A stretch of 64,000 nucleotides of DNA, from positions 310,001 through 374,000 of the forward strand of contig JABCZH010000004.1 in NCBI GenBank assembly GCA_013289795.1, in the 5' to 3' direction. The notes under the pieces were generated by a model, which ran no database searches, was not told the DNA's origin, and saw only the letters and a list, made by a program, of their open reading frames with translations. The position numbers and the translations under genes are program-made. Positions 12,788 to 48,436 of the stretch are shown in pieces. This DNA is from Acidobacteriota bacterium (GTDB taxonomy: Bacteria > Acidobacteriota > Terriglobia > Terriglobales > Acidobacteriaceae). Position 1 is the stretch's first letter, and every line of letters starts with the position of its first letter.

Positions 12788-12828
12788 GCCCGGGTGGCGA
12801 AATTGGCAGACGCACGGGACTTAAAATC
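12788..12828 (+). pseudogene. 5' part of the host tRNA-Leu(UAA) gene, split by the element (attL)
   Basis: These bases hold acceptor strand GCCCGGG, a D-arm of Leu type, the 5' anticodon stem CGGGA and the loop CTTAAAA with anticodon TAA, then TC. The expected 3' stem TCCCG is replaced by element sequence (TCGCA), so no tRNA can fold here. The missing 3' part, whose acceptor strand CCCGGGC pairs exactly with this one, is at 48379-48436. Rejoining the parts gives an 89-nt tRNA-Leu with encoded CCA. Confidence 0.92.
12819..12828 (+). repeat. Left attachment core (attL)
   Basis: ACTTAAAATC is the 10-base sequence shared with 48379-48388. It spans the anticodon loop and first stem bases of the split tRNA gene. 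It marks where tyrosine-recombinase strand exchange must have occurred. Confidence 0.85.
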
Positions 12829-12851
12829 GCACATTACACCTTGCTAATATT

Positions 12852-12940
12852 CATTATGTTATTGCTATACAACAACTTATTGACATAATGTCCGTCCGCG
12901 ATATACTTACACATGTCTTTCACACTTTCGTATTTTGAAA
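12852..12940. repeat. Left-end integrase arm region
   Basis: This AT-rich stretch between attL and the integrase gene holds an 8-base inverted repeat (CATTATGT at 12852, ACATAATG at 12883). It also has a CTTACACA motif at 12906-12913 and a CACACTTTC..ATTTTGAAA segment at about 12921-12940. The CTTACACA and CACACTTTC motifs recur near the right end (48299-48337). They are candidate arm-type sites for the integrase or an excision factor. Confidence 0.5.
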
Positions 12941-12959
12941 GACTGCGGAGGTATCCGCG

Positions 12960-14246
12960 ATGGCGGAACAATACGACATCCTGGGCGGCAAGGTTCACGT
13001 CTACAAACGCCCGAACAGCAGCCACTGGCAGTGCTCCAGCTATTTCGCCGGCAAGAACCGCCGGACGAGCACAAAGGAAGACAGCATCTCCAAAGCAAAA
13101 GAGATCGCCGAGGATTGGTATCTGCAACTGCGTGGAAAACTCCGCAGCGGAGAAATCAAAACAGAAAAAACCTTCCGCGAAGCATCAGAACTATTCCTTC
13201 GTGAATACGACATCATCACGCAGGGCCAGCGAAGTAAAGTCTACGTGGAAGGCCAACAGCGGCGCTCGCAGGGGCACCTTGTGCCGTTCTTCGGCCACTT
13301 CGGCCTTTCAGAAATCACCGCAGGCAAGATCCAGGACTACCGCATTCATCGCCACGAAGAGGCTGTAGCCAAACACGGCAAACCGCCGGCACACAACACC
13401 ATGCATCAGGAGATAGTGGCTCTTCGACAGACCCTGAAGACCGCCATCCGCCACGGATGGATCGATCACCTTCCCGATCTTTCCGAGCCGTACAGATCAT
13501 CGCCAAAAATCTCGCACCGGGCGTGGTTTTCTCCCGAGGAGTACAAGAAACTCTACGAGGCTACAAGAAAACGCGCGCATGAACCCAAGCAGGCGCGGTT
13601 CAAATGGGAATGCGAACAGCTTCACGATTACGTACTGTTCTCGGCCAACACGGGCCTCCGTCCTGATGAAGCGCGGCGCCTTCAATTCCGGGACGTGACA
13701 ATCGTTGAGGACGACGCGAGCGGTCAGACGATCCTTGAAATCGAAGTGCGCGGTAAGCGTGGAGTTGGTTACTGCAAAAGCATGAACGGCGCTGTGCGCC
13801 CGTTTGAGAGACTGAAAGCCAGATTACGTCCGCCACGCGCCTACGAAGACGGCAGGGGCGAGAAGGGGCCGAACACCATGAACAACGGCTCCGAAAAATG
13901 GTGCCTTCCGCAACCGACAGACCTCATTTTTCCGAAATGGCAGCGCGAGCTTTTCAAGACGATTCTGGACGAAGAAAATCTCAGGTTCGACCGCGAAGGC
14001 CGGCCGCGAACGGCCTACAGCCTGCGGCATACGTACATCTGTCTGCGCCTGATGGAAGGTGCCGATATCTACCAGATCGCCAAGAACTGCCGCACCAGTG
14101 TCGAGATGATCGAGAAATATTACGCGTCGCACATCAAGACGAATCTTGACGCCGCCGCGATCAACATCATGAGAGCAAAACCAAAAAAGAAGCAAAAACC
14201 ATCCGATCATTCCAGATCGACCAGAACCTCCGACACCGGAGACTAA
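12960..14246 (+). CDS. int: Tyrosine recombinase integrase
   Basis: A 428-aa phage-type integrase that should catalyse site-specific insertion and excision at the tRNA-Leu anticodon region. The N-terminal half carries arm-binding and core-binding SAM-like domains. The catalytic domain shows the first arginine (NTGLRPDEARRL), the H-x-x-R box as YSLRHTY, and the nucleophile tyrosine in MIEKYYASH near the C-terminus. The start has GCGGAGG about eight bases upstream. The gene lies 131 bases from attL, reading inward. The C-terminal 30 residues are Lys/Arg-rich. The intron-bearing tRNA-Leu gene begins 48 bases after the stop. Confidence 0.93.
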   Translation: MAEQYDILGGKVHVYKRPNSSHWQCSSYFAGKNRRTSTKEDSISKAKEIAEDWYLQLRGKLRSGEIKTEKTFREASELFLREYDIITQGQRSKVYVEGQQRRSQGHLVPFFGHFGLSEITAGKIQDYRIHRHEEAVAKHGKPPAHNTMHQEIVALRQTLKTAIRHGWIDHLPDLSEPYRSSPKISHRAWFSPEEYKKLYEATRKRAHEPKQARFKWECEQLHDYVLFSANTGLRPDEARRLQFRDVTIVEDDASGQTILEIEVRGKRGVGYCKSMNGAVRPFERLKARLRPPRAYEDGRGEKGPNTMNNGSEKWCLPQPTDLIFPKWQRELFKTILDEENLRFDREGRPRTAYSLRHTYICLRLMEGADIYQIAKNCRTSVEMIEKYYASHIKTNLDAAAINIMRAKPKKKQKPSDHSRSTRTSDTGD

Positions 14247-14293
14247 CGTGTAAATTCACCCTGCCTGCTCTATGATAGAAAACTGTAAACCGC

Positions 14294-14623
14294 GCGGGCG
14301 TGGCGGAATGGCATACGCAGCGGACTTAAGGAAAACTTGAGTGCTCGCCTGGGAAACCGGCGATGCAGAACTGCTCAAAGTCGGGGAACCCTGAAATGGC
14401 AATCCCGAGCCAAGCCCGGAGAAACACTCCAGCCGGGAAGGTGTAGAGACTAGACGGGCAGCACCTAAGCCCCGGATTCTTCCGGGGGAGGGTGAAGGGA
14501 TAGTCCAGACCGCAAACCTGGCGCGCGCCCTTAAAGGCCGCGTCCGGGCGGCGAAAGCCGTAGACGGCATGAAAATCCGCAGGGCTTCGGCCTGTGTGGG
14601 TTCGACTCCCACCGCCCGCACCA
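14294..14623 (+). tRNA. tRNA-Leu(UAA) interrupted by a group I intron, carried by the element
   Basis: The exons are 14294-14327 and 14572-14623 and splice to an 86-nt tRNA. The acceptor stem is GCGGGCG/CGCCCGC, the anticodon stem GCGGA/TCCGC, the loop CTTAAAA with anticodon TAA, the variable arm long (AGGGCTTCGGCCTGT), the T-arm GTGGG-TTCGACT-CCCAC and CCA is encoded. The intron enters after U34, the position used by the classic tRNA-Leu(UAA) introns of cyanobacteria and plastids. It differs clearly from the split host tRNA-Leu in acceptor, D and variable arms, so it is not a simple duplicate. It probably supplies the UUA-decoding tRNA lost through integration (inference). No promoter was identified; it may be read through from the integrase gene. 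Confidence 0.93.
14328..14571 (+). ncRNA. Group I self-splicing intron in tRNA-Leu(UAA)
   Basis: A 244-nt intron, close in size to the Anabaena tRNA-Leu intron. P1 is perfect: ACTTAAG at 14324-14330 pairs with CTTGAGT at 14336-14342, placing the required U.G pair at the 5' splice site (U14327 with G14339). P2 (TCGCC/GGCGA, 14345-14363) follows. The conserved P element is visible near 14391-14417 (AATCCCGAGCCAAGCCC), R near 14444-14461 (AGAGACTAGACGGGCAGC), a P8 hairpin near 14470-14488 and S near 14494-14508 (AAGGGATAGTCC). The last base is G14571, the omega-G. It encodes no homing endonuclease. Subgroup IC3 is likely from the insertion site and sequence. Confidence 0.92.
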
Positions 14624-17077: not shown

Positions 17078-17740
17078 ATGAACGTCTTTGACATTCTGGC
17101 AAACTACTACCCCGCCTTCCTCAAAGGCCTCTCCGTCACTCTACAACTCTGCGCGGTCATCTGGGGCAGCGGGCTAATCCTCGGCAGCCTGCTCGGCCTC
17201 GCTGGCGCGAAAATCGCGCCTGTGGCCTTCGCCAGCCGCAGCATATCCTTCGTCCTCGGCTCTGTCCCGCTGCTGGTCTTCTTGTTCTGGCTGCATTATC
17301 CGGCGCAGGCGATGTTCGATGTGGTCATCGACCCGTTCTATACTGCGGCCTTTACATTTTCCGTCGTCAACATTTTCGGGGTCGCCGATGTTGTGCGCGG
17401 CGCGCTGTTCGATTTTCCCCGCCAGTACCTGACGGCCGCGAAAGTCACCGGCCTTACTCCGCGCCAGACCGTCTTCAAAATCCAGCTACCGTTGATCCTG
17501 CGCGAAATCCTGCCGACCCTGATGCTGCTGCAGGTCAGCATGCTGCACGTGACGCTGTTTGCCAGCTTGATCTCGGTAGAGGAGATCTTCCGCGTCGCCC
17601 AGCGTATCAACGCCCAGATATATCGTCCGGTAGAGATTTACACGGCGCTCGGCGTCTTTTTCCTCGCCGTATGCCTGCCGGTCAACGGATTCGCCTACTG
17701 GCTGAAAAAACGCTATACACGGAATTTATCGGAGCATTAG
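17078..17740 (+). CDS. Amino-acid-type ABC transporter permease
   Basis: A 220-aa inner-membrane permease of the HisM/GlnP type with about five hydrophobic segments. It has the cytoplasmic EAA loop that docks on the ATPase (YLTAAKVTGLTPRQTVFKIQ). Only one permease is encoded, so it would have to homodimerise. It is the first gene of a five-gene importer operon; the next gene begins 11 bases after its stop. Confidence 0.85.
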   Translation: MNVFDILANYYPAFLKGLSVTLQLCAVIWGSGLILGSLLGLAGAKIAPVAFASRSISFVLGSVPLLVFLFWLHYPAQAMFDVVIDPFYTAAFTFSVVNIFGVADVVRGALFDFPRQYLTAAKVTGLTPRQTVFKIQLPLILREILPTLMLLQVSMLHVTLFASLISVEEIFRVAQRINAQIYRPVEIYTALGVFFLAVCLPVNGFAYWLKKRYTRNLSEH

Positions 17741-17751
17741 CAGGGGATTTT

Positions 17752-18591
17752 ATGAAAAGAAGATTCATTCTGACGGCACTTCTAACCCTGACGGCCCTGC
17801 CCGCGTTCGCGGCCGGACCTGCTATCGACCGTGTGAATGGTAGCAATTCCTTGCGCTGCGGCTATGTCGAATATGAACCCGCCTTGACCAAGGACCTGAA
17901 GACCGGCCAGTGGCACGGCTTTGACTACGACATCGTTCAGGCGATCACCAATCGTCTGGACCTCAAGACCGAGTACGCGGCCGCGACCGGTTGGGGCACG
18001 GTCGCAGCGGACCTGAATGCCGGAAAATTCGACATGCTGTGCTCGACTTTCTGGGTGCATCCGAACGTGGCCAAGTTCGCGCTGTTTTCACGGCCCGCCT
18101 ATTTCCAGCCAGTCTTTCTTGTCGCGCGGACGAACGATTCGCGGTTTGACGGGACGCACCTCCTCAACGATCCGACGCTGACGATGGTCGCGGTCGATGG
18201 GGATAATCCGGTCGCCATCGCCAAGGCGGATTTTCCGCAGGCAAAAATTTCCACCCTACCGAACATGACAGATCCATCCCAGGTGCTCCTCGCCATCGCA
18301 GATGGCAAGGGTGATTTTACGATTACGGACGCCATGACGTTCGGCGATTACGCGGAGCATAATCCGGGCAAACTTCACATAGTCAATCCGGACCGGCCCG
18401 TCCGCGTCTATCCGTCAAGCTACGTCTTCCGTTCCGACGACGGCCAGTTGCGCGACGCCGTCAACGCCGCCCTGGACGAGTTGATTCTCGACGGCACGAT
18501 CGACCGCATCATGAATAAATACGATACCCATCCGAATGGCTATTACCGCGCGACCGTGCCGTATCGGAATCCTTATAAGCAGGAAAAATAA
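17752..18591 (+). CDS. Periplasmic solute-binding protein 1 (family 3)
   Basis: A 279-aa secreted binding protein of the polar amino acid class. It begins with a clean signal peptide (MKRRFILTALLTLTALPAFA), then the family opening RCGYVEYEP and a type II periplasmic fold with GTVAADLNAGKFDMLCS. ATG 17752 is preceded by AGGGG; the frame extends upstream but only into the permease. It is the first of three consecutive binding proteins for one permease. Confidence 0.85.
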   Translation: MKRRFILTALLTLTALPAFAAGPAIDRVNGSNSLRCGYVEYEPALTKDLKTGQWHGFDYDIVQAITNRLDLKTEYAAATGWGTVAADLNAGKFDMLCSTFWVHPNVAKFALFSRPAYFQPVFLVARTNDSRFDGTHLLNDPTLTMVAVDGDNPVAIAKADFPQAKISTLPNMTDPSQVLLAIADGKGDFTITDAMTFGDYAEHNPGKLHIVNPDRPVRVYPSSYVFRSDDGQLRDAVNAALDELILDGTIDRIMNKYDTHPNGYYRATVPYRNPYKQEK

Positions 18592-18648
18592 TGCCATGAG
18601 ATGCTGCTGCCCGCGTGATTATCAGCCGGAATAAAAACGGAGAACCCG

Positions 18649-19500
18649 ATGAAAACATTCCTGAACAAATGGGTGCCTGCACTTGTGCTACTGCTTCTGC
18701 TGCCTGGCATTGCCCGAGCGGCCGACGTGGGGAAAGAATCCGTCTATGACCGCGTCATGCGCATCGGCACGATCCGTTGCGGCTATTTTCTGTGGCCGCC
18801 GTTTCTGGAGAAAGATGTCAATACAGGCAAGATGAGCGGCGCGTCCTACGACATTATGGAGGAAATCGGCAAGCAGTTGAGCCTGAAAATCGACTGGGCC
18901 GAGGAAATCAATTTTGCCTCGATGTTCGAAGGCTTCGCGAGCGGCCGCTATGACATGATCTGCGGCCCGATGTCGCCGACGCCGGCTCGGGCGCGGGCTT
19001 CGGATTTTACTATCCCGCTGTTCTACACGACCTATGACTTGTACGTCGGAGGCAAGGACACCCGCTTCGATAAGAACCGTGCGGCGCTGAACGATCCAGC
19101 GCATAAGTTTGCCGGGCTCGACGGCGAATTCACGTCGATCATCGCGCAGGAGGATTACCCGCGCGCGACCTATTTTTCTGTGCCGCAGCTTTCGGACGCC
19201 AGCCAGCTACTGATGACGCTGGCGACCGGCAAGGCCGACGTGACCGTGACCGACCCGATGACCGCCAATAAATTCATGGAGCAGAACCCAGGGAAAATCC
19301 GCCGCCTGCCTGGCCCGTCGGCGCGCGTCCTGGCGGTAACCTTCGCCATCCCACTGGGCGAGGAGCGGTTTAAGACCATGCTCAACCTGGCCAGCCAGAG
19401 CCTGCTCGACAGCGGTTTTGTCGAGCGCATCTTGGAAAAATATCCGACCGCTGACAAAACCATGCTCCGCGTGGCGAAACCCTATGAGGTACAAAAATGA
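18649..19500 (+). CDS. Periplasmic solute-binding protein 2 (family 3)
   Basis: A 283-aa paralogue of the preceding protein, with signal peptide (LLLLLPGIARA) and the same opening pattern RCGYFLWPPFLEKDVNTG. It carries GFASGRYDMICGPMSPTP in the ligand-domain region. It is closer to binding protein 3 (YDRVMRIGTIRCG against FDRVMRTQTLRCG) than to protein 1. Its stop overlaps the next start as ATGA. Separate specificities for the three paralogues are likely but cannot be read from sequence. Confidence 0.85.
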   Translation: MKTFLNKWVPALVLLLLLPGIARAADVGKESVYDRVMRIGTIRCGYFLWPPFLEKDVNTGKMSGASYDIMEEIGKQLSLKIDWAEEINFASMFEGFASGRYDMICGPMSPTPARARASDFTIPLFYTTYDLYVGGKDTRFDKNRAALNDPAHKFAGLDGEFTSIIAQEDYPRATYFSVPQLSDASQLLMTLATGKADVTVTDPMTANKFMEQNPGKIRRLPGPSARVLAVTFAIPLGEERFKTMLNLASQSLLDSGFVERILEKYPTADKTMLRVAKPYEVQK

Positions 19501-20330
19501 AAAAAGTTCTTCTGATTGCTTTCCTTTCCCTGATCGCCGTCCCGGCCTTCGCCGCCGACGCGCCGAAGGAATCCGCCTTTGACCGCGTCATGAGGACGCA
19601 GACCCTGCGCTGCGGCATGATGCTGTGGCCACCCTATTTCGAGAAGGACCCGAACACGGGCGCGATTCATGGCTATGCCAAGGATTTATCGGACGGTGTT
19701 GCCAGCCTGCTCGGTGTCAAGATCGAGTATGTCGAGATCGTGCCGGGACAGCAGGTCGAGGAACTGAAGGATGGCCGTGTCGACGCCGTCTGCGATGATG
19801 GGCCGTATGTCTTTTCGGAGATGAAGTTCCTTGATTACACCAGTCCGCTCTATTACGTGCCGGTCTTCGCCTACGGCCGCGCCGATGAACAGCGGTTCAA
19901 GTCGCAGGGCGATCTCAACCACAAGGATGTGCATTTCATCGGAATGGACGGCGATCTGAGCGTTGCGCTGGTACAGCGGCGGTTTCCGCAGGCGACGCTG
20001 TCTACATTGCCCAGCACAACGGATTCCGGCCAGTTGATGCTGAACGTGAAGGATAAAAAGGCCGACATCACGATCATCGATCCGCCATCGGTTGCGACCT
20101 TCAACGCCAGCAACCCGCCCGGCGTTAAAGCGGTCGCGGGCGGCGAACCCGTCGCCATCTACCCGGTCGGATTCTCCGTGAAGAAGGGGGATGCGGAATT
20201 AGCGCTGATGATCAATTCCGGAATCGCGGCGCTGTGGAATACCGGTGAGGCTGCGTCCATCCTCCATAAATACGATCCCAGAGGGACGATGTTCTATGGC
20301 GTCGCCAACGGCTACCGGCCGATGAAATAG
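19497..20330 (+). CDS. Periplasmic solute-binding protein 3 (family 3)
   Basis: A 277-aa third binding protein with signal peptide (LIAFLSLIAVPAFA) and RCGMMLWPPYFEKDPNTG. The family arginine region is changed here (DAVCDDGPYVFSEMKF). It overlaps protein 2 by four bases and is followed immediately by the ATPase, with no gap. Divergence from protein 2 suggests different ligands for a shared permease. Confidence 0.85.
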   Translation: MKKVLLIAFLSLIAVPAFAADAPKESAFDRVMRTQTLRCGMMLWPPYFEKDPNTGAIHGYAKDLSDGVASLLGVKIEYVEIVPGQQVEELKDGRVDAVCDDGPYVFSEMKFLDYTSPLYYVPVFAYGRADEQRFKSQGDLNHKDVHFIGMDGDLSVALVQRRFPQATLSTLPSTTDSGQLMLNVKDKKADITIIDPPSVATFNASNPPGVKAVAGGEPVAIYPVGFSVKKGDAELALMINSGIAALWNTGEAASILHKYDPRGTMFYGVANGYRPMK

Positions 20331-21062
20331 ATGCTCACTGCCCGTGCCATCCACAAGGCTTTCGGCGAAAAGCAGATCCTGCGAGGCGTCGATGTGGCGG
20401 TGGCACCGGGGCAGATCACTTGCGTGATCGGGCCGTCCGGCACGGGCAAAACGACGCTGCTACGTGCATTGGCGTTTCTCGATTATCCGGATGAGGGGAC
20501 CGTGACGCTTGATGACCGGACCTATGATTTTCCTCGCCAACCCAGACAAGCTATCACGCCACCGCCCTGGCCGCAGGTGACGGCGGTTTTCCAGTCCTTG
20601 TTCCTGTGGCCGCACCTCACCTTGCGCGAAAACATCATGCTACCGGCGCGCAATCATAGCCCGGAACGAGCGGAAAAGGATATCGAAGGTCTGGCTGCGT
20701 TTTTCGAGATGGGCGGTTTTATCGACCGCTATCCTAACGAAGCGTCGGTCGGCCAGCGGCAACGGGCAGCGTTGGCTCGCGCGTTGATCCTCAACCCGCG
20801 CTATCTTCTGCTCGACGAAATCACGTCCGCCCTCGATATTGAACAGACAGCACGCATTCTGACGAAGCTGGAGCACCTGAAAGACCGCAATATCGGCATG
20901 TTGTTGATCACCCATGCAATCGGCTTTGCTCGCCATGCCGCCAACCACATCGTTTTCATGGACGGAGGACAGGTAATGGAACGGGGCCCGCCCGGCATTC
21001 TCGACGCGCCGAAAACGGAACGGCTAAACAATTTTCTTTCCCTTGTCCGCGCAGCACAATGA
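20331..21062 (+). CDS. ABC transporter ATP-binding protein (amino acid type)
   Basis: A 243-aa ATPase that should power the importer. Walker A is GPSGTGKTT. The signature is ASVGQRQRAALARA, a departure from the usual LSGGQ. Walker B is YLLLDEITSALD and the switch histidine is in LLITHAIGFARH. The ATG directly abuts the stop of binding protein 3. It is the last clear transport gene; the synthetase-like gene starts 65 bases on. Confidence 0.9.
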   Translation: MLTARAIHKAFGEKQILRGVDVAVAPGQITCVIGPSGTGKTTLLRALAFLDYPDEGTVTLDDRTYDFPRQPRQAITPPPWPQVTAVFQSLFLWPHLTLRENIMLPARNHSPERAEKDIEGLAAFFEMGGFIDRYPNEASVGQRQRAALARALILNPRYLLLDEITSALDIEQTARILTKLEHLKDRNIGMLLITHAIGFARHAANHIVFMDGGQVMERGPPGILDAPKTERLNNFLSLVRAAQ

Positions 21063-27320: not shown

Positions 27321-27452
27321 TAACCAGATCCTTCCAAAGGGACATCGTACTCTGTTAGAAACTCCCTGACCTGTCCACTCAGATCGCGCCCGTTCCGTGC
27401 GGGGGCCGCGTACTTTCGCCTTATATTCGCCTCATGGTATACAATTCTACTG

Positions 27453-27752
27453 ATGCCGGATCGTTGGTGCACAGTCACAGTCACGGAGGCCGCGGGGCGA
27501 CGCTATAGTCTTGACCTCCTCGCCTCCAGCACCTACGACGCGGCGCATCTGTACGTGGCCCACGTTAAGGAACAACCGCGCGGGCGCTCGTCATTTCCGA
27601 TCCCCACCGTCGCGACGGTTTTCGAGGTCGCCACAAATGGCGCCGTCTACCGCGTCACGGGAAAGGCCCTGCAGCAATGGATCGAGCGCCGCCGCCATGC
27701 ATGGAATGGCCCAAAGGGTGCCATCTTTCGTAAACGTCCAGGTCTGGAGTAG
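27453..27752 (+). CDS. Small conserved protein of acidobacterial type
   Basis: A 99-aa soluble protein (MPDRWCTVTVTEAAGRRYSL, then STYDAAHLYVAHVK). The pattern resembles a small protein I associate with Acidobacteria; this was not checked by search. It is divergent from the ATPase operon, 132 bases away. If truly acidobacterial, it is host-derived cargo inside an element whose transfer genes look proteobacterial. Function unknown. Confidence 0.6.
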   Translation: MPDRWCTVTVTEAAGRRYSLDLLASSTYDAAHLYVAHVKEQPRGRSSFPIPTVATVFEVATNGAVYRVTGKALQQWIERRRHAWNGPKGAIFRKRPGLE

Positions 27753-27847
27753 CCGATCATGTCACGATTGCACCATTTATTGTCTATTGCTTCCGTGCAG
27801 CACGGTGGTGTAACGTGGTGCAACACACAAAACCGGGGTTTGTTTCC

Positions 27848-28051
27848 ATGCCTGGACCAAAACGCAAGCCGCAGAAAACCAGGATATCCCGTTCTCCCCG
27901 GACATCTGTTACGTTCCCCCCTGATATTTACCAGACCCTTGAAGATCTGGCCAAGAAAAAGAAGGTTTCCGTCGCCTGGGTTGTCCGTGACGCAGCCGAA
28001 AAATACATTGCCGAGCAATGGCCGTTGTTTGCGGGGTCGAAAAATGGCTAG
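27848..28051 (+). CDS. Ribbon-helix-helix regulator of the restriction cassette
   Basis: A 67-aa CopG/Arc-type protein: basic N-terminus, a beta strand (RTSVTFPPDIYQTLEDLAKK) and second helix (VSVAWVVRDAAEKYIAEQW). It overlaps the methylase start by eight bases, so it probably controls expression of the restriction-modification cassette. Start taken at ATG 27848; the frame opens earlier at 27815. Confidence 0.7.
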   Translation: MPGPKRKPQKTRISRSPRTSVTFPPDIYQTLEDLAKKKKVSVAWVVRDAAEKYIAEQWPLFAGSKNG

Positions 28052-29216: not shown

Positions 29217-29217
29217 C

Positions 29218-30153
29218 ATGGACCCGCGCCTCCGCGAAACGCTGATTGCGTTCACAGCCGAAAAGAAATTCAGAGGCAAAGGCCCGCTTTCAGTCGCGCT
29301 CATCGTCACCGATCACGCGCGAAAGCGAGGTCTGCCGCTCAGTGCAGACGAACTGATAACCGAAGGCGGCGGCCAAGTGCTCGGACTTGGAAAAGGCGCG
29401 ATCCAAAAAATTCTGGCAAAGCACGACATTACCCGCGTTCTCGCCGCCGAAGGCGGCCGAACCAGCCGTGGAAGCCTGAACAACATGCGCCAGTGCGTCG
29501 CGCTGCTGAACAGTCTTCACGAACAAGGCCTCTCCGATCTCGACGCTATCGAGCAATTCTGGATTGAAAAAATCCAGGAATTTTTCGCCGGGAAACCGTT
29601 CAAAATCAAACTTGACGCTTCGCGCAGTCTGCGGACTGTCGTGCGTGATGTCATCGCCCAGGCCGAAGAACGGCAGAGGACATCTCAAGGCACTAATTAT
29701 GCGGGCGCCGTCCTGCAGTATCTTGTCGGCGCCAAGCTGGATTGCGCACTCGGAAAGGGGCACATCGAGCACAACAGCTTTTCCACCGCCGATGCGCCCG
29801 GTGAGCGCGCCGGTGATTTCTTCATCGGCGACGTTGCGATCCACGTCACCACGTCCCCAGGCGAGTCGGTGATTGAAAGATGCCGCGAAAATCTCAATGA
29901 CGGCTACCGGCCCATTCTGGTGACATTGCAGCGCGGCCTCACGGTCGCCGAAGAACTTGCGCGCAATGTCCACCTGGCCGAACGTATCGACTTCTTTGAG
30001 ATTGAACAATTCGTGGCGTTAAACCTGTACGAATTGGGCAAGTTCGCAGCCGAGGGCCGGAAAGTCGCAGTCAACGACCTTGTGGCCCGCTACAATGAGG
30101 TTGTCGAAGAAATCGATACTGACCCCAGCCTCAAGATCGAGCTAAAGCGGTGA
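29218..30153 (+). CDS. DUF4928-like putative restriction endonuclease
   Basis: A 311-aa protein that fits the DUF4928 family found beside C5 methylases, where it is presumed to be the restriction nuclease. A candidate nuclease core is GERAGDFFIGDVAIHVTTSP (D and following beta strand), then ERCRENLNDGYRPILVT. The N-terminal 130 residues are helical. ATG 29218 starts two bases after the methylase stop, and its own stop overlaps the vsr start. The family assignment is from memory and the cleavage site is unknown. Confidence 0.7.
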   Translation: MDPRLRETLIAFTAEKKFRGKGPLSVALIVTDHARKRGLPLSADELITEGGGQVLGLGKGAIQKILAKHDITRVLAAEGGRTSRGSLNNMRQCVALLNSLHEQGLSDLDAIEQFWIEKIQEFFAGKPFKIKLDASRSLRTVVRDVIAQAEERQRTSQGTNYAGAVLQYLVGAKLDCALGKGHIEHNSFSTADAPGERAGDFFIGDVAIHVTTSPGESVIERCRENLNDGYRPILVTLQRGLTVAEELARNVHLAERIDFFEIEQFVALNLYELGKFAAEGRKVAVNDLVARYNEVVEEIDTDPSLKIELKR

Positions 30154-30551: not shown

Positions 30552-30690
30552 CGTGGAATGAGCAGCAACTATAAAACGACTTCGGGCAAGACTCTCGATC
30601 AGCGGCGAATACCAACGCGATCCGTCAAGTCGCCCTGTCGCTCTGGCATGAATCGTGATAATACAAGAAGATTCACAAGGGAGATCATTG

Positions 30691-36274: not shown

Positions 36275-37204
36275 ATGAAAAACGAAACAACCAACACCAG
36301 CCGTCAGGACGTTTATAGTCGTATCACCGCGCAAATCGTGGCCGAACTCGAAAAGGGTGTCCGCCCTTGGGTCAAGCCGTGGAATGCCGAACATGCCGCC
36401 GGACGCATTACGCGCCCGCTGCGTCACAATGGCCAGCCCTATTCCGGAATCAATGTCTTGTCCCTGTGGATGTCAGCAACCGCGCAGAATTTCGCCGCCC
36501 CTATCTGGATGACCTACCGTCAGGCCAGCGAATTGAAAGCGCACGTCCGCAAGGACGAAAAAGGCTCTCTGGTCGTCTATGCCAACGCGCTCACGCGCAA
36601 GGAAACCGACGAAAAGACCGGCGACCAGATCGACCGCGAAATCCCTTACATGCGGGCCTATTCCGTTTTCAACGTCGAGCAGATTGAAGGCTTGCCGGAA
36701 ATCTACTACGCGAAAGTTGCGCCGGCACTGGACCCTGTCGCCCGAATCGAGATCGCGGAAAGGTTCTTCGCAGCCACCGGCGCGAACATCGGCCACGGCG
36801 GAAACCGCGCCTTCTACAGCCACAGCGCCGACGCTGTGCAGATGCCACCGTTTGAATCTTTCCGCGATGCTGATTCTTATTACGGCACTCTGGCGCATGA
36901 GCTGACGCACTGGACGAGCGCAAAGCACCGCCTTGACCGCAACTTCGGCGGACACCGTTTCGGCAGCAATGCTTACGCCCAGGAGGAACTGGTCGCCGAG
37001 CTTGGCTCTGCATTTCTCTGCGCTGATCTGGAAATTGCGCTTGAGCCGCGCGAGGAGAACGCTGCCTATCTCGCCAACTGGCTTGAGGTTTTGCAGAATG
37101 ACAGCCGCGCGATTTTCACGGCAGCCGCGCACGCGCAACGAGCCGCCGACTTCATTCATAAATTCAGCGCCGCCGCGCAGGTCACCCAGACCTGCGCGGC
37201 GTAG
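36275..37204 (+). CDS. ArdC-like antirestriction protein
   Basis: A 309-aa protein of the ArdC/DUF1738 group, thought to coat and protect entering single-stranded DNA. The N-terminal single-strand-binding region begins RQDVYSRITAQIVAELEKG and PWVKPWNAE. The C-terminal zincin-like domain has the metal-binding HExxH in YGTLAHELTHWTSAKHRLD. An AGGAG box lies upstream of the second ATG of an ATGAAATGAAA start region. It fits an element that must evade restriction when entering a new host. Confidence 0.9.
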   Translation: MKNETTNTSRQDVYSRITAQIVAELEKGVRPWVKPWNAEHAAGRITRPLRHNGQPYSGINVLSLWMSATAQNFAAPIWMTYRQASELKAHVRKDEKGSLVVYANALTRKETDEKTGDQIDREIPYMRAYSVFNVEQIEGLPEIYYAKVAPALDPVARIEIAERFFAATGANIGHGGNRAFYSHSADAVQMPPFESFRDADSYYGTLAHELTHWTSAKHRLDRNFGGHRFGSNAYAQEELVAELGSAFLCADLEIALEPREENAAYLANWLEVLQNDSRAIFTAAAHAQRAADFIHKFSAAAQVTQTCAA

Positions 37205-37747: not shown

Positions 37748-39445
37748 ATGATCCCCAAGGGCAATCAACGGGGCGGCGGTCGTCAGCTCGCCACACATCT
37801 GATGAACCAGTTCGACAACGACAATGTCGAAATCGCCGACCTGCGCGGCGCTGTCGCGCAAGACCTGCACGGCGCCTTTCATGAATGGTTCGCGCAGTCG
37901 AAGGCGACGAAGTGCACTAAATATCTCTATTCCCTATCCGTCAACCCGGACCTGGCCAAGTACGACCTGACCCGCGAACAGTACCTCGATTTTGTGGCGC
38001 GGACAGAGCGCAGCCTGGAATTGGTCGGCCAGCCCCGCGCCGTCGTGTTCCACGTCAAGAACGGACGGCAGCACTGCCATGCCGTATGGTCCCGCATCAT
38101 CCCCGACGCCAGCAGAGCCGTCCACATGGATCATGACAGGTTAAAGCTGCAGGACGTGGCGCGGGAATTCGCCCGCGATCACGGCCTGCCGCTGCCGCCC
38201 GGCATGGAGAAGAAGGGCAGCAACAGGCAAAAGCAGTCGGACCATAAGGAGAAACAGCAGCAGGAACGCTCCGGCATATCGAAGGAAGAACGCATGGCGG
38301 CGATCACCGCCGTCTGGTACGAACACAGCGAAGACCCGCACGCCTTCGTCAAGGCTCTTGAGAAAGCGGGCTATCACCTCGCCCGCAGCGCGTCCGAGCG
38401 GTATGAAGGCGATAAAGGCCGCTATGTCGTCATCGACCATGCGGGCGAGGTTCACCCCCTTGCCCGCCAGATAGAAGGCGTGCGGACAAAACAGATCAAG
38501 GCGTTTCTCGGCGCTGATTATCCCCTCGAAAAATTGCGCGACATTGAAACCGCGCGCGCAGCGGCGCAGCAAGCCCGGAACGAGCGGGCGGCAGAAAAAG
38601 AAGCGGCGAAGGCGCGGCCCGAAGATGCACCGGCCCGGCGGGAACAGGATGCGAAGGAAAGACGCGAGGAGCTTTCCCGCCATCATGCGGACCGCCGATT
38701 ACAGCTTGACGTAAAAAGCACGGAGCTGGAAAAACGCATTGACACCGAGCGCCGGGCCTTGCTCGATCTTCAGACGGCGGAGAAAGACGGCGTGCTGCAC
38801 GCCCGCGCGGCAAAACAGCCGCGCGGGATGCTCGCGTTTCTCGCCCGCATCACCGGCATCCAGGCCTACGTGGCCGCGCGGCACATCCGGCAGGACGCCG
38901 CACGCGAAAAGACGCACAAGGCCGAACAGGAAGCCCTTGACCGCCGGCATGGCCGCGAGCGTCACGAAATGGGGCGCCGGTATGCGGGCCTTGCCGCCGT
39001 TGAAACCCGCGAGCGCCAGTCCCTGGAGATCGCGCTCAAGCGGCGCGAATTCCAGATTCTTGCACCGAAGAAACCGCCGCAGCGTGTCCTCAAGCCTGAA
39101 TTCGACCGCGCCGTCAACCTCGCCGTGGCCATGCAGGGAGGCGGCGACAGCATGGCCGCTAAGAAAGAACAGCTCATGCGCGACTTCGCCAACGCCACCG
39201 ATCCGCACAGGACCGCCCAAAAAGGCGACACCGGAAAATCGCCCACGTTCACAAAAGCCGACCTGCAGCGTGCTTTCGAGTTGGCGAAAGATCCCGCGCG
39301 CAAGCCCGCCACCAGCACCGGCCAGCAGGAACACACGGAGGAAATCCATCCGGAGAAGCTGGAGCAGGCCCGCGAGAAGAAGGACGATCTGGAAAAGCGC
39401 CAGCGCGGCCATGAAAAGGACCGCGATCCCGACCGGGAGCGCTGA
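37748..39445 (+). CDS. Relaxase (alphaproteobacterial mobilisation type)
   Basis: A 565-aa DNA-nicking relaxase that would start conjugal transfer. The N-terminal nuclease domain shows KGNQRGGGRQLATHLMN, TKCTKYLYSLSVNPD and the histidine motif FHVKNGRQHCHAVWSRI. From residue 160 to the end it is a highly charged coiled-coil region rich in Arg, Glu and Ala. The C-terminus is basic-acidic and ends DRDPDRER, a tail shared with three other proteins nearby. A truncated paralogue lies at 33282. The N-terminal Tyr of standard MOB families is not obvious, so the nucleophile is uncertain. Confidence 0.85.
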   Translation: MIPKGNQRGGGRQLATHLMNQFDNDNVEIADLRGAVAQDLHGAFHEWFAQSKATKCTKYLYSLSVNPDLAKYDLTREQYLDFVARTERSLELVGQPRAVVFHVKNGRQHCHAVWSRIIPDASRAVHMDHDRLKLQDVAREFARDHGLPLPPGMEKKGSNRQKQSDHKEKQQQERSGISKEERMAAITAVWYEHSEDPHAFVKALEKAGYHLARSASERYEGDKGRYVVIDHAGEVHPLARQIEGVRTKQIKAFLGADYPLEKLRDIETARAAAQQARNERAAEKEAAKARPEDAPARREQDAKERREELSRHHADRRLQLDVKSTELEKRIDTERRALLDLQTAEKDGVLHARAAKQPRGMLAFLARITGIQAYVAARHIRQDAAREKTHKAEQEALDRRHGRERHEMGRRYAGLAAVETRERQSLEIALKRREFQILAPKKPPQRVLKPEFDRAVNLAVAMQGGGDSMAAKKEQLMRDFANATDPHRTAQKGDTGKSPTFTKADLQRAFELAKDPARKPATSTGQQEHTEEIHPEKLEQAREKKDDLEKRQRGHEKDRDPDRER

Positions 39446-42954: not shown

Positions 42955-42960
42955 CTTTTC

Positions 42961-45900
42961 TCACCAACTTACCCGGATCCAGTTACATCCGTAACCCGGC
43001 TTTAAGTTTAGTACGAGAGCCTTGTGCGCCCAGGGGTCCGAGCCATCACGGCCATCCTTCTTGACGACGGACGGGAAAGACCAGTAGACGAGATTCCTGT
43101 CTTCACTCGAATCCCGCCCGGTCGGCGCACCAAGGACGGCCACAGCGTCGGCTTCGGAGCGGCCGAACAGGTCAAGCAAGGGATCATTGCCGACATGTGA
43201 TCGCACACACTCCAGCGCACCGATCATAAGTGCCACCGATTCCACTCTGCTGTCTTCGTAACTCACCACCATCACGCTCGCGCCTCGCACGCAAAAGCCC
43301 TGCGAGCCGTTGCTGCTAGTCAGAGCGCTCGCAGATGGTCCATACAAAGAGACAACCTGCGCCACTGTGTCACCGGCTTTCAGCCCGGCGAAGTGCGAGA
43401 CATCGATGCTGCCGATCGTCAGCGGCGCCGGAGCGCGCTGCGCCGCCCCTGGCGGCGTGATGAAGCCGCCGCCGCCGATGGGGTCGTCATCGGGCGCTGG
43501 CGTAGGTCCGGCGGTGGCGGAATTGGAGCCATTCTTCGTATCGGTCGCATTAGCGCCCGTGTTTCCCGGTGGCTTCCCCGGATCGCGGTTTTGCCGGTAG
43601 TATGCGTCCCATGCAGCCTGCGTACGGGCTTCTTTCTCCGCCTTGTCCCTCAGCGTGCTTCTGATCGCGGCACCGATGGCGATAACGACAACCAGCAGCA
43701 GGCAGGCAATTGCAAAAATGATTGCGCGCCTCTTGCTTTTGCCTTTCTGGTCAGCGGCCCGCTGTCCGGCTTCCACCGAGGCTTTCACCCGTTCGCAAAA
43801 CGCCCTCAGTTCCGCAAACGGGTCCGCCGGTTGCGCGCCGTCTTCGTAGTACAGCAGAGAAAAGAGCCGGCCCTCCGGAACGTCGCCGCCGGTAGCCCCC
43901 TCAACCGCTGTTATCTTCCCGCCACGGGGAACCCGGATCGGCGCCGCCGCCGTTCCGTTCGCCGTGACGACCAGCGCGCTTTCATCCCCCGGCCTCGCGA
44001 TCTCTCCCGCCGTGATCGACCAGGAGCCGAGGTGCAACCCGAAAGCGGCCAGAGAAAAACCGAGTGTCCGCCCCTCGACCGTCAGTTCCTTCGGCGCCGC
44101 GTAAGGATAGTCCGGGTGGGGATCGAACAGCCCCATGAACTGAAAATCCTCGTAGTAATGGACGCGGCGCAGCAGGACAGGACGCGCCCCGGAGATTACG
44201 GCAAGCGCCAGCCCCGGATAGGCGACACGCGCCCTGTCATCGATGCGCGCGAAGACCTGGCCGATTTCATCGGGCGTGATCAGGGCGCGCTTCTGAATGG
44301 TCTCACTCGTCCCCGCCGTGCGTGACTTCGAGGTGCCGCGCGTTGTCCCTTCTGTCTCGCTCGTGCCCGTAGTGCGGCTTTCGGACGTGCCGTCCGTGCG
44401 CGAGCGCGATGTGCCGTGCGACACCCCATGCGAACTCCCCTCGCTCCAGCCCTTCGATTTTCCCTCCGATTGGCTCCGGCCCTCCGAGATGTGGTCCCAA
44501 TCGTACGTGTTCCAAAAAAAACCCTGCGCATAGTTGTAAGTTTTCGAACGGCTTTGGCTACTGTTCACGCCCCATGAGCGGCCCTTGTTAACAGAACTGT
44601 TCGTCCCCTCCGTCTCCGACGTTCCCGTCGACGACGACCGCCCGCTCGTTTCAGACTCGGACCGCGAGACGCTGTGCGAAACGCTTTCGGATTCGGATGT
44701 GCTGTCGCTCGCCGAATGCACTTCACGGATCACTTCGGTATCGCCGATCAGCTTGGACACATATTCGCGCGAGAAATTATCCTCAAGATTGAAAAACACC
44801 TTGAGGCCGGAGTTGGCGAGGAAGGTTTCCCAGTTGTCCTTGTAGACCGCCTTGAGCTGCTCAAGACTTTGCAGAACGAAGAACAGTTTTACCCCGTAAC
44901 CGGCGATCTGGGCGACGGCGGATTCAATAATCTCCATCCGTTTTAGCCCCGCGAATTCGTCGAGCACCATCAGCACCGGAAAGCCCGCAGCGGGTTGCCC
45001 CCTCACCTTTTCCATCTCTGTCACCGTGAGAGAGATCATCATCCGCAGCCACCGGTAATGTGTGCTCATGAACCTTTGCGGAAGGCACAGATAAACACTC
45101 AGCCCCTCGGGGCGGGTCTTCAGTTCGGAAAGCTGGAAATCGGACGCCTCCAGGCACCGCTGCATCGCCGGGGAATCGATGAACTCGGTGTTCCGGTTTG
45201 CCACCTGCAGAACGCTTTCAAACTGCTTCGGGGAATTCAGCAGCATGTTGGTGAAGGAATCGCCCATGCCGGCAACCAGACCGTCGAAAACCGGGTTGTT
45301 GGCCAGCCCCGTCCACAGCAGTCCATGAGCCGGGGGAATATCGTTTTCTCCGGCAGCCTTCAGCGCCTCGACCGATTCCCAGTCGCCCCGCGTGATGAGT
45401 TTCCGCAACGTGATCAGGTTTCTTCGGCCTTCGTATCCCGGCGCTGTCAGGATGTGGAGGATGAGCCCCTTGACCATGGCGCGGGCTGATTCATCCCAGA
45501 AAGGATCGTTGCCCTCATGGATGACCACGAGCGCGTCGGCAATCCGCCCCGCTTCGTCGATGGTCTCTTCGTCTTCAGGGTTGAGGGCATCGAGGGGATT
45601 GAACCGCCCGCGCAGGGAATCATCCACCTGGGAGGCCTTGAAAGGGTCGAGAACCCTGACCGCCTGTCCCATGCCTTTGGCGTACTGGGAGCCCCCTCCC
45701 CGTCTGGCGGCAGTAACGGTCGCGTTCTCGCCTTTGGGATCGACGACGCAGAGTGAACCCGGCCACAGGACCAAATTATTAACGATTGAACAGGCGCCCT
45801 TGCCTCCCCTCGATCCGCTGACAAGGCAGACATGACGGTCATCACGGTAGCCGACCGCAACCTGGTTCTCACTGGCAGAACGCCCCAGCCACACGGTTCC

Positions 45901-45996
45901 GTCACGGTAGGCATACGTCTCCTCAACAAGCGACGGATCGGCCCATTCGGCGGTGGCAATGCGCATGGCCATAACTCGCCATCCATCGCCGATCAT
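42961..45996 (-). CDS. VirD4/TraG-type coupling protein with Ser/Thr-repeat insert
   Basis: A 1011-aa type IV coupling ATPase that would bring the relaxosome to a secretion channel. Walker A is SGSRGGKGACS (residues 60-70) and Walker B is FPVLMVLDEFAGL. Three features are unusual. There are no N-terminal membrane helices. Residues about 430-590 are a low-complexity Ser/Thr/Gly/Glu segment with repeats such as GTSETEGT and SRSES. A membrane helix follows only near residues 755-780 (FAIACLLLVVVIAIGAAI), followed by a Pro/Gly linker and a C-terminal domain with cysteines. It is read opposite to the other transfer genes. Start uncertain among three nearby ATGs. Confidence 0.82.
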   Translation of the reverse strand: MIGDGWRVMAMRIATAEWADPSLVEETYAYRDGTVWLGRSASENQVAVGYRDDRHVCLVSGSRGGKGACSIVNNLVLWPGSLCVVDPKGENATVTAARRGGGSQYAKGMGQAVRVLDPFKASQVDDSLRGRFNPLDALNPEDEETIDEAGRIADALVVIHEGNDPFWDESARAMVKGLILHILTAPGYEGRRNLITLRKLITRGDWESVEALKAAGENDIPPAHGLLWTGLANNPVFDGLVAGMGDSFTNMLLNSPKQFESVLQVANRNTEFIDSPAMQRCLEASDFQLSELKTRPEGLSVYLCLPQRFMSTHYRWLRMMISLTVTEMEKVRGQPAAGFPVLMVLDEFAGLKRMEIIESAVAQIAGYGVKLFFVLQSLEQLKAVYKDNWETFLANSGLKVFFNLEDNFSREYVSKLIGDTEVIREVHSASDSTSESESVSHSVSRSESETSGRSSSTGTSETEGTNSSVNKGRSWGVNSSQSRSKTYNYAQGFFWNTYDWDHISEGRSQSEGKSKGWSEGSSHGVSHGTSRSRTDGTSESRTTGTSETEGTTRGTSKSRTAGTSETIQKRALITPDEIGQVFARIDDRARVAYPGLALAVISGARPVLLRRVHYYEDFQFMGLFDPHPDYPYAAPKELTVEGRTLGFSLAAFGLHLGSWSITAGEIARPGDESALVVTANGTAAAPIRVPRGGKITAVEGATGGDVPEGRLFSLLYYEDGAQPADPFAELRAFCERVKASVEAGQRAADQKGKSKRRAIIFAIACLLLVVVIAIGAAIRSTLRDKAEKEARTQAAWDAYYRQNRDPGKPPGNTGANATDTKNGSNSATAGPTPAPDDDPIGGGGFITPPGAAQRAPAPLTIGSIDVSHFAGLKAGDTVAQVVSLYGPSASALTSSNGSQGFCVRGASVMVVSYEDSRVESVALMIGALECVRSHVGNDPLLDLFGRSEADAVAVLGAPTGRDSSEDRNLVYWSFPSVVKKDGRDGSDPWAHKALVLNLKPGYGCNWIRVSW

Positions 45997-46605
45997 ACGC
46001 GCGGGAACAAAGACGGAACAATGGCCTTCCCATAAACAGGGCCGTCCGCTCTCCCCTCTTGCCTTTTCCTCTGCTCCGGTTTAAGGCTTTTTGACCGGCC
46101 CCGACTGGCAGGTACTTGTCGCATTCGGGAATCAAATTGGCTATTATCCGGGGCAAGGTTCTATGGTAAGAAAAGTAAATGTGCCGGGCTCCTCCGGCGG
46201 TAAAAAAGGAACTTCGCTGCGCTCGCAAGTTGTGCGCGTGTTCCACGCGCCACCGTTCGCTGACGCTCTCTCAACTTGGCAGGGGGCTCTTCCGGCCCCC
46301 CTTGCATTCCCCCCGGTTCAAGGGCTCCGCCCTATGAAAATCCCGCCACCCTCAACGCGGGGTGGACGCGCGCATAGCCCCTTGGCCGGGGCTGGCACCT
46401 TGGCCGGTGCCTTATGCGTATCTGGGGATACGCCCGCTGCCTGGAGCAGCTCCCGGCTGACCTTGGCCGGTCAGCCAGCGCGCCCTCTGGACGAGGCGCT
46501 TGCGGAGGCCCTGACGGTCTGGCGACCTCGGCTTGCGCCCATGGCCCCCGCTTTCACCCGCCCGGTGTGTCCGGCCTGGACGGCCCGCCCTTGGGAGGCG
46601 CACAC
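45997..46605. other. 609-bp non-coding region with hairpin array
   Basis: This is the largest gap in the transfer module, between the coupling protein and mobC, which are divergent. A frame of 175 codons runs through it on the plus strand, but its composition is that of a chance high-G+C frame. From 46282 on it is packed with short inverted repeats (separate entry). It is a candidate transfer origin or leader. Confidence 0.5.
46282..46500. repeat. Array of short hairpins before mobC
   Basis: At least eight consecutive inverted repeats: 46282-46300 (GGGGGC/GCCCCC), 46321-46333 (AGGGC/GCCCT), 46346-46365 (CCACC/GGTGG), 46376-46393 (AGCCCC-TTGGCC-GGGGCT), 46394-46411 (GGCACC-TTGGCC-GGTGCC), 46416-46433 (GCGTATC/GATACGC), 46436-46450 (GCTGC/GCAGC) and 46455-46476 (GGCTGACC-TTGGCC-GGTCAGCC). 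A bulged one lies at 46477-46500. Three share the loop TTGGCC while their stems differ with compensating changes. Confidence 0.75.
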
Positions 46606-47091
46606 ATGGGCAAGGTGAAAAGCCGCAGCGGCAGTCAACGGCGCAGGACCACGAAGCGGATCAATGTCAACTGTACGCCCGAACGCTATGCCGCCATCAG
46701 CAAGCTGACCGAAGCGTACGGCCAGTCCCCATCCGCCCTCACCCTCCATACCCTGCTTGGCATTCCCCTGCCCCGCGTCCGCCGTCCGCGCGTCGATGAC
46801 GAGCTGATGCGGCAATTCTTCACCGAAATCGCCCGCGCCCGTGACGCCGTGAAGGCCGCAGAGGCCGAGCTGGGAAAGTCCGGGTCCAACCTCAACCAGA
46901 TCACTCATGTTCTCAATACCGACCGCGCCCCGGAGAGCGTCATGAATATTCTGGAAAGCACCCTGCAAGATCACCGTGAAGTGCTCCAACACGTTGCCCA
47001 GGTCATCAGGGATCTGGAGGAACTACGCCTCGCCGGCATGAATACCATGGGGCTGGAGCTGAGGCCCGGCACCGACGACGGCGACAAATAA
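46606..47091 (+). CDS. mobC: MobC-like relaxosome protein
   Basis: A 161-aa mobilisation accessory protein. The N-terminus is basic with a ribbon-helix-helix-like start (RRRTTKRINVNCTPERYAAI). The C-terminal part carries the MobC signature (GSNLNQITHVLNT) that in this family precedes a helix contacting the relaxase. A GGGAGG box lies before ATG 46606; the frame is open upstream but through the hairpin array. parA follows 173 bases later. Confidence 0.85.
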   Translation: MGKVKSRSGSQRRRTTKRINVNCTPERYAAISKLTEAYGQSPSALTLHTLLGIPLPRVRRPRVDDELMRQFFTEIARARDAVKAAEAELGKSGSNLNQITHVLNTDRAPESVMNILESTLQDHREVLQHVAQVIRDLEELRLAGMNTMGLELRPGTDDGDK

Positions 47092-47264
47092 TCTTTCTTC
47101 CGCAAATCCCGATGCCCCGCAAGTAGTCCTTCCATCCTGACACGCCGTCATGACAGTTCATACTGACAGCCCATCAGGGCAACACATCACCACCCCTTGA
47201 CCTTTCGCCCCGTCATGCCATAGTGACATCACGTCCTGCCCTTCCAACCACACCAGGCTTACCC

Positions 47265-47879
47265 ATGATCATCACAGTAGCTTCCTACAAAGGCGGCGTC
47301 GGCAAGACCACCACAGCCATTCACATTGCCGCCTACCTGCAGAAAAAAGCGCCCACGTTGCTGATCGACGGCGACATTATCCGCGCATCGACTCACTGGA
47401 TGCAGCGCTCGGAAGGGCGGGGGCTCCCCTTCAAAGTCGTCGATGAAACGCAGGGTATCAAGGCCGCCCGCGAATACATCAAGGGTCACGTTGTCATCGA
47501 CACGGAGGCCAACCCGTCCCGCGTCGATTTCAAGGCTGTAGCCGAAGGATGCGACCTTCTCATCATCCCCACCGTTGCCGAAACCACCGCCACCGACGGG
47601 CTTATTTACACCCTGAAAGCGCTCCGCGATATCGGCACAGCGCGCTACAAAATCCTCATCAACAAGGTGCGCCCGAAGCCCAATCGTGACGCCCACAAGC
47701 TCCGCAGCGAACTGGAGAACACCGGCATCTCCGCTGTCTTCGACACCGAAATCCCGAACCTGATCGCGTTTGACAAGGCGTCTGCGGCGGGTGTGCCTGT
47801 TTATGACGTGAAGGACGACGACAACGCGATGCGGGCATGGGCTGCGTACCAAGCCGCCGGAAAGGAAATCCTCAAATGA
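47265..47879 (+). CDS. parA: ParA-family partition ATPase
   Basis: A 204-aa deviant-Walker ATPase of small ParA/Soj type. KGGVGKTTTAIHIAAYL is the deviant Walker A with its signature lysine. The Walker A' aspartate is in LLIDGD, and Walker B follows (HVVIDTEANP). There is no N-terminal HTH, so DNA repression would rest with the partner. It may stabilise the excised circular form. Its stop overlaps the next start as ATGA. Confidence 0.92.
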   Translation: MIITVASYKGGVGKTTTAIHIAAYLQKKAPTLLIDGDIIRASTHWMQRSEGRGLPFKVVDETQGIKAAREYIKGHVVIDTEANPSRVDFKAVAEGCDLLIIPTVAETTATDGLIYTLKALRDIGTARYKILINKVRPKPNRDAHKLRSELENTGISAVFDTEIPNLIAFDKASAAGVPVYDVKDDDNAMRAWAAYQAAGKEILK

Positions 47880-48172
47880 ATGAATCGAAGTTCGCAGGTC
47901 TGAAGGATCTGAAAAGCGAGAAAGGGCAGGGGGCGAAAGCTCCACGGCCAGCCCCCGCCAAAGCCGTGTCCACTGCCGTTCTCACGCCCAAGGAGCGCAA
48001 TCTTACCGGCAAGCGCAGTCACCCCGACTGGAAACAGCGCAGCGTTCTGCTGAAGAACGGCAGCTTCGATGAAGCCCACGACATTCTCAAACGCAAATAC
48101 AACGGGCGTGATTTCTCGGAACTGATGCAGGCGTTGCTCGATCAGTGGTTACATACTGAAAGGGCGCAATGA
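47876..48172 (+). CDS. Small ParA partner protein
   Basis: A 98-aa basic protein translationally coupled to parA (ATGA). The C-terminal half looks like a ribbon-helix-helix or small helical DNA-binding domain (KQRSVLLKNGSFDEAHDILK). Position and size suggest a ParB/ParG-type centromere-binding partner (inference). Confidence 0.65.
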   Translation: MNESKFAGLKDLKSEKGQGAKAPRPAPAKAVSTAVLTPKERNLTGKRSHPDWKQRSVLLKNGSFDEAHDILKRKYNGRDFSELMQALLDQWLHTERAQ

Positions 48173-48298
48173 CAGGGCGTAATGACGGTATATAAGGACA
48201 ACTCGAAATCGCGCCGAAGCTTTCGCCCGCTGTCCGTTCAGAGTAAACTTTTCTTCGCGGCAGGTGGTCAGGCAGCCGAAGAGCGACATTTCCTAAGA

Positions 48299-48366
48299 CT
48301 TACACAGAAGCTTACACACTTTCACATTTGTTGAAAATAAGCACCATACTATCAATAACTTACAAT
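48299..48366. repeat. Right-end integrase arm region
   Basis: CTTACACA occurs at 48299-48306 and 48311-48318, with a variant CTTACAAT at 48359-48366. CACACTTTCACATTT...TTGAAAA at about 48315-48337 resembles the left-end stretch at 12921-12940. These are likely integrase arm-type sites. Confidence 0.5.
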
Positions 48367-48378
48367 CAAACGCATAGC

Positions 48379-48436
48379 ACTTAAAATCCCGAGTTCCGAA
48401 AGGGACGTGCCGGTTCAATTCCGGCCCCGGGCACCA
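48379..48436 (+). pseudogene. 3' part of the split host tRNA-Leu(UAA) (attR)
   Basis: It begins with the core ACTTAAAATC, then completes the anticodon stem (TCCCG), variable arm (GTTCC-GAAA-GGGAC), T-arm (GCCGG-TTCAATT-CCGGC), acceptor strand CCCGGGC, A and encoded CCA. It pairs with the 5' part at 12788. No 5' part precedes it here, so it is not expressed as a tRNA. Confidence 0.92.

Follow-up and report, generated by a model that had tools for sequence, protein, structure and literature searches.

A split tRNA-Leu(UAA) gene and its replacement

The window analysed here is a stretch of 64,000 nucleotides from an Acidobacteriota bacterium of the family Acidobacteriaceae (assembly GCA_013289795.1, contig JABCZH010000004.1, positions 310,001 to 374,000 of the forward strand). 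The host gene for tRNA-Leu(UAA) in this window is cut in its anticodon loop by a 35.6-kb element that encodes a tyrosine integrase (int), and the 10-bp core ACTTAAAATC is present at both element ends (coordinates in Table 1). Fused through the core, the two halves pair perfectly and yield an intact gene of 89 nt that ARAGORN calls as tRNA-Leu(taa). As they stand, neither junction contains a tRNA and the element side continues the tRNA at neither end, as seen with ARAGORN and in the sequence. The locus presents the traits of tRNA-dependent integration: a tyrosine integrase acting on a tRNA gene, a short common core, here of 10 bp, and a gene rebuilt at neither junction. The reconstructed attachment site of the free element (attP) must have read ...CATAGC-ACTTAAAATC-GCACATT.... 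All three copies of the motif TTACACA in the window (12907, 48300 and 48312) are at the element ends, and the motif is likely the arm-type site of the integrase. Immediately outside the right junction (attR), at 48507-48563, lies a second partial 3' half of tRNA-Leu(UAA) without CCA, which a preliminary description of this DNA had not listed. Because similar tandem 3'-half repeats are found near the intact UAA genes of three other genomes (G047, G078, G224), this copy is probably older than the element.

The perfect pairing of the halves would also fit a trans-splicing of the kind known from archaeal split tRNAs, with the element copy as a mere spare. The halves are however 35 kb apart, and their element-side flanks are no more complementary than shuffled sequences (-7.5 kcal/mol, compared to a shuffled median of -5.4 and a 5 % level of -9.5). 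We know of no tRNA trans-splicing endonuclease in bacteria. Trans-splicing was rejected as unsupported, and we consider it highly improbable.

Between int and the cargo genes, ARAGORN with the intron option called a complete intron-bearing tRNA-Leu(taa) at 14294-14623, and its joined exons form a canonical tRNA-Leu(taa). The intron is inserted within the stretch whose counterpart in the host gene is the att core. In a focused search, the intron matched the Rfam model Intron_gpI over its full length with 41.6 bits (E 2.5e-9) and fell short of the curated threshold of 50, which introns of several relatives exceed. An Rfam scan of the entire window at the gathering threshold gave no match, and ARAGORN without the intron option failed to call the gene. 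Standard searches tend to miss such cases, for which an intron-aware tRNA search is needed and whose element ends share only 10 bp. Both structural claims of the preliminary description, the split host gene rebuilt at neither junction (sequence, ARAGORN) and the full tRNA-Leu(UAA) with a group I intron (ARAGORN, Rfam), were confirmed.

Fifty-five intron tRNA genes could be delimited; all have a uniform splice position, a U before the intron, a G at its end and tRNA-forming exons. The intron in the window presents the core structure of group I introns in tRNA-Leu(UAA) and their insertion between positions 34 and 35 with the flanking U and the terminal G. We take this to be the insertion point of the cyanobacterial tRNA-Leu intron as well. 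An RNAalifold consensus of 38 introns contained 53 pairs, 21 of them with compensatory changes, plus long invariant stretches; the ribozyme is therefore under selection. The intron would be expected to self-splice and give the mature tRNA.

Further group I matches were observed in other genomes. In two loci (L139 in G013, L142 in G165), one contig holds a pair of intron-bearing tRNA-Leu(UAA) genes or of group I matches separated by a few kb, which repeated integration or duplication may have produced. At about 3099-3420 of L140 (G029), a weak group I match comes immediately after an intact intronless tRNA-Leu(UAA). Matches of about 650 nt in G224, G166, G138, G253, G259 and G146 were not tied to a tRNA by ARAGORN; perhaps these introns lie in other host genes and contain an endonuclease open reading frame (ORF).

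tRNA-Leu(UAA) genes in the host and in other genomes

The host genome comprises 4.67 Mb on 33 contigs with a completeness of 99.9 %, and the closest named relatives of its integrase belong to the Acidobacteriota, class Terriglobia. A second UAA gene elsewhere, named in the preliminary description as a finding that would speak against it, was not found in the whole genome with four types of search: a 3'-half pattern, a tRNA covariance model with ARAGORN anticodons, a leucine D-arm pattern allowing three mismatches, and the group I model. The leucine tRNAs recovered were CAA, CAG and GAG in addition to the UAA gene of the element. The disrupted tRNA thus appears not to be redundant, within an inventory that is not fully complete. 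Host genes of the window contain 19 UUA codons in 7607 codons; since these genes beside the element use UUA, the UAA tRNA is needed by the cell.

In a census across genomes, all 20 element-free genomes hold an intact intronless UAA gene, and 19 of 22 genomes with an intron tRNA lack an intact one (Fisher p = 3e-9, a statistic that ignores relatedness). UAA matches in four genomes (G179, G242, G266, G111) proved to be attR partials without the 5' acceptor strand. Three genomes without an intact UAA gene are single-contig assemblies (G215, G290, G292). In three element-free genomes the UAA gene is very close to the joined host halves. In G047, G078 and G224 the flanks lack synteny with the window; these are therefore intact genes of the same lineage and not the exact empty site.

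Intron tRNAs occur also without an integrase. No int was detectable near the intron tRNA of G248, G292, G011, G041, G098 and G126, and only int remnants were present in G215, G009 and G111. An intact UAA gene was found in none of these genomes. This is the pattern that dependence predicts, because int may decay and the tRNA may not.

Replacement tRNAs across the integrase family

About 18 of the 299 genomes in the class contain close relatives of the integrase (59-87 % identical), and a scan of 85,462 species revealed 392 relatives. The best 80 of these belong to Acidobacteriota, Alpha- and Gammaproteobacteria, Planctomycetota, Binatota and Gemmatimonadota, mostly as metagenome-assembled genomes. 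The following counts rest on the best-scoring relatives (about 90), which are not independent of each other. In most of them a tRNA-Leu gene has been cut at its anticodon loop, and its 5' half lies about 150-240 bp before int. Forty-six loci split a UAA gene. Two of them could not be judged, and all judgeable ones (44/44) carry an intron-bearing tRNA-Leu(UAA), the association with related integrases that the preliminary description had proposed to look for. In 42 of the 46 the intron tRNA lies directly behind int, a count that includes loci at contig ends or gaps where only its beginning is visible; in two it is 2-5 kb away. The distance to int is 50-170 bp in nearly all intact loci of several phyla.

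In nearly all cases examined, elements that split a tRNA-Leu(CAA) gene, a version of the system beyond the preliminary description, bring an intronless tRNA-Leu(CAA) of their own. This replacement was located next to int in seven loci by pattern and in five more with a GATTCAAAA loop. Acidobacteriota CAA elements at first appeared to have no replacement; this was rejected, as the replacement was found at the far end of the element in all seven loci examined, a subset of one Acidobacteriota clade. Four relatives (L186, L192, L207, L218) follow intact genes for tRNA-Met, -Arg, -Phe and -Arg, respectively, at a distance of 107-113 bp. No replacement tRNA was detected in the inspected part of these loci, short of their far ends, and they may represent the classical tRNA-restoring kind. 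On the integrase tree, the target changes at least eight times. Replacement tracks target in five of six independent pairs on well supported branches, and the opposite was never observed (sign test p 0.06). The family constitutes a natural experiment: integrases that split a tRNA gene bring a replacement, and relatives beside intact tRNAs do not. The earlier proposal of replacement instead of restoration is thus strongly supported, at the locus as well as across the family.

Two further arrangements were noticed among the relatives. In a Planctomycetaceae contig (L222), an intronless tRNA-Leu(UAG) comes after the integrase relative and may point to a third type of target. Five contigs (L183, L185, L194, L197 and L222) have TTACACA-like arm sites also beyond the core, about 200 bp upstream of int, and look like attP in circular, tandem or extrachromosomal copies rather than a split tRNA.

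The recurrence of the arrangement bears on two alternatives. An assembly error could have joined two loci at the repeated core, and in several relatives the contig does break off at the intron tRNA, much as contigs do at repeats. The architecture of both ends recurs however in dozens of independent assemblies, single-contig genomes included; a mis-join, which the preliminary description had raised itself, is therefore unlikely to the point of being negligible. Alternatively, the intron tRNA could be native to the host lineage, with the split gene as an unimportant second copy. Intron-bearing tRNA-Leu(UAA) is native in cyanobacteria (PMC4476775), and int-less orphans exist in this class. Against a native gene stand the element-free genomes, which hold only the intronless form, three of them with a gene very near the joined halves, and the position of the intron tRNA close behind int in nearly all intact loci of several phyla. 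We regard a native origin as very unlikely.

Proposed mechanism and dependence of the cell

Very probably the element integrates via the short core, breaks the sole UAA gene and supplies an intron-bearing substitute on which the cell then depends. In the proposed sequence of events, the tyrosine integrase would recombine the attP core with the anticodon loop of the host tRNA-Leu(UAA). The insertion destroys the gene because attP holds no copy of the 3' part of the tRNA, as read from the sequence. The tRNA behind int would be transcribed, and its group I intron, whose anatomy and conservation were observed, would splice itself out to give a mature UUA-reading tRNA. Integration should be viable through this tRNA, and the cell should live on it alone because no other UAA gene was found. 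Loss of the element tRNA would be lethal, and loss of the element would be tolerated only by a precise excision that re-forms the host gene. Less certain is the next step: neither the own integrase nor an incoming relative would find an att site in the replacement gene, because the intron splits the core there. After decay of the element, the replacement tRNA remains as the only UAA gene of the cell, a pattern seen in the orphans. The dependence claimed in the preliminary description is supported by the gene inventory and by intron tRNAs that outlast a decayed integrase.

Three observations weigh against this scheme. Leu(UAG), Ile(GAU) and Ala(UGC) were also not recovered from the host genome, thus its tRNA inventory is incomplete; Ile(GAU) and Ala(UGC) genes are usually located in rRNA operons, which collapse in draft assemblies. 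Three of the 22 genomes with an intron tRNA (G091, G165, G019) hold an intact UAA gene besides it. One relative (L133) splits a CAA gene and has an intron-bearing UAA tRNA behind int. Because of the incomplete inventory, the census across genomes is stronger evidence than the search in the own genome.

Role of the intron

Within this scheme the intron may have a role of its own. It could be an immunity device that hides the cell's sole UAA tRNA from the own and competing integrases, by which the family would have become a main vehicle that spreads and fixes the intron-bearing tRNA-Leu(UAA) across non-cyanobacterial bacteria; this extended proposal is tentative, and we lean slightly against it. 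That the intron shields the gene from the integrase is plausible. Alternatively, the intron is functionless for the element and came along with the tRNA cassette, the tRNA replacement being real and the shield not; it would persist since group I introns are rarely lost precisely. This alternative has a little less than an even chance. The common splice position and an acceptor strand of GCGGGCG or GCGGACG in nearly all genes are expected from descent of one cassette, and several intronless CAA replacements persist with an intact core. A passive intron is less easily reconciled with the integrase tree, on which the intron and intronless states switch at least 12 times, yet intronless UAA replacements are almost absent. 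The only one, in L197, has altered loop-closing bases. A hand count that ignores relatedness points in the same direction: 16 of 22 CAA replacements are without the GACTCAAAATC core, which is held by 15 of 16 native genes.

Several replacements argue against a shield. The core is kept in the CAA replacements of L185, L219 and one Acidobacteriota clade, and the replacement in L178 has the same core as its own target. The general rule that no replacement keeps an intact core was therefore dropped, given the several CAA replacements that retain it. Protection from the integrase would be a good explanation for the intron of the UAA genes, but no universal rule.

Gene content of the element

The integrase has invariant family motifs (Table 1); in Pfam its sole match was a weak, SAM-like one (PF13102), just below the cut-off. 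Among 30 element ORFs scanned, neither phage genes nor mating-pair genes were detected. With its own integrase and relaxase and without a full mating-pair set, the element is best described as an integrative mobilizable element (IME) with defence cargo, not a phage. A relaxase and a coupling protein are present in place of the genes of a temperate phage with lysogeny. In addition to the full relaxase, a short ORF at 33282-33773 encodes another relaxase nuclease domain, perhaps the remnant of an older or composite element.

Table 1. Features of the element and of the split host gene in the window (positions from the first nucleotide of the window)
Feature	Position	Strand	Basis
5' half of host tRNA-Leu(UAA), ends in att core (attL)	12788..12828	+	Sequence; ARAGORN on joined halves
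att core ACTTAAAATC at attL	12819..12828	+	Identical to 48379-48388
Putative arm-type integrase sites, left end (CTTACACA...TTTCACACTTT)	12906..12931	+	TTACACA confined to element ends; similar layout in relatives
Tyrosine integrase, 428 aa	12960..14246	+	Family-wide alignment; invariant Arg and LRHT motifs
Exon 1 of replacement tRNA-Leu(UAA), tRNA positions 1-34	14294..14327	+	ARAGORN with introns
Group I intron, 244 nt, between U34 and A35	14328..14571	+	Rfam, ARAGORN, 38-sequence alignment
Exon 2 of replacement tRNA-Leu(UAA), encoded CCA	14572..14623	+	ARAGORN
Cargo: amino-acid ABC transporter genes (permease, three binding proteins, ATPase)	17078..21062	+	Pfam
Cargo, defence region: PDC-S06-like AAA protein (-); C5-methylase, DUF4928 restriction enzyme, Vsr, GmrSD (+)	24765..32388	both	Pfam, PADLOC
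ArdC-like antirestriction protein	36275..37204	+	Pfam
Relaxase (MobA/VirD2-like)	37748..39445	+	Pfam
VirD4/TraG-like coupling protein	42961..45996	-	Pfam
NikA-like mobilization protein and ParA-like ATPase	46414..47879	+	Pfam
Putative arm-type integrase sites, right end (CTTACACA twice, TTTCACA)	48299..48330	+	Same right-end layout in relatives
att core and 3' half of host tRNA-Leu(UAA) with CCA (attR)	48379..48436	+	Sequence; ARAGORN

Comparison with known systems

The principle of tRNA replacement on integration is already known from actinophages and rhizobial prophages. In actinobacteriophages, tRNA-dependent lysogeny was shown by experiment in 2024 for Fionnbharth, LeBron and Gaia (PMC10865867); phage Gaia has an intronless tRNA-Leu(CAA) downstream of int and an 8-bp core (PMC10865867). 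Common to these phages and the present element are a tyrosine integrase, a short core in a tRNA gene (8-17 bp in the phages), the lack of rebuilding at attL and attR, and a cognate tRNA on the element. The actinophage systems differ, as phages with intronless replacements and without such an integrase, from a mobilizable element with a group I intron and a cross-phylum integrase family. A scan of viral contigs with the integrase gave no relative, and phage records only distant matches of 22-28 %. The element would work like tRNA-dependent lysogeny without being a lysogeny system itself. In Sinorhizobium, an inactivated host tRNA is replaced by a prophage isoacceptor that resembles genes of unrelated species, according to the part of the text searched, in which no intron is mentioned (PMC11476347); these elements are again prophages.

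The cyanobacterial intron-bearing tRNA-Leu(UAA) (PMC4476775) is the same gene with the same kind of intron, resident there and mobile here in other phyla. For archaea, introns in tRNA att sites have been proposed to keep integrases out, and possibly to help an integrated element to exclude others (Randau and Soell; PMC3293823, PMC4390854). This proposal is based on comparison and concerns protein-spliced introns rather than self-splicing ones in replacement genes. Classical islands that copy the 3' end of the tRNA have likewise a tyrosine integrase beside attL in a tRNA gene, whereas here nothing is restored.

The view of the preliminary description that the arrangement was undescribed did not hold for the principle (PMC10865867, PMC11476347). 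It stood for an intron-bearing replacement with the intron in the att core, for the non-phage, mobilizable context and for a cross-phylum family with target-matched switching, which were not found in the open-licence papers searched; nor was an earlier report of an intron tRNA together with an integrase found in this literature. Orphan intron tRNAs that outlast their integrases are a further new feature. The findings suggest why selection might favour a self-splicing intron inside a tRNA gene and how a foreign gene can take the place of an essential tRNA gene, a point relevant to the patchy occurrence of tRNA-Leu introns beyond the cyanobacteria. Compared with the phage systems, tRNA replacement on integration is extended here to mobilizable elements and to several phyla.

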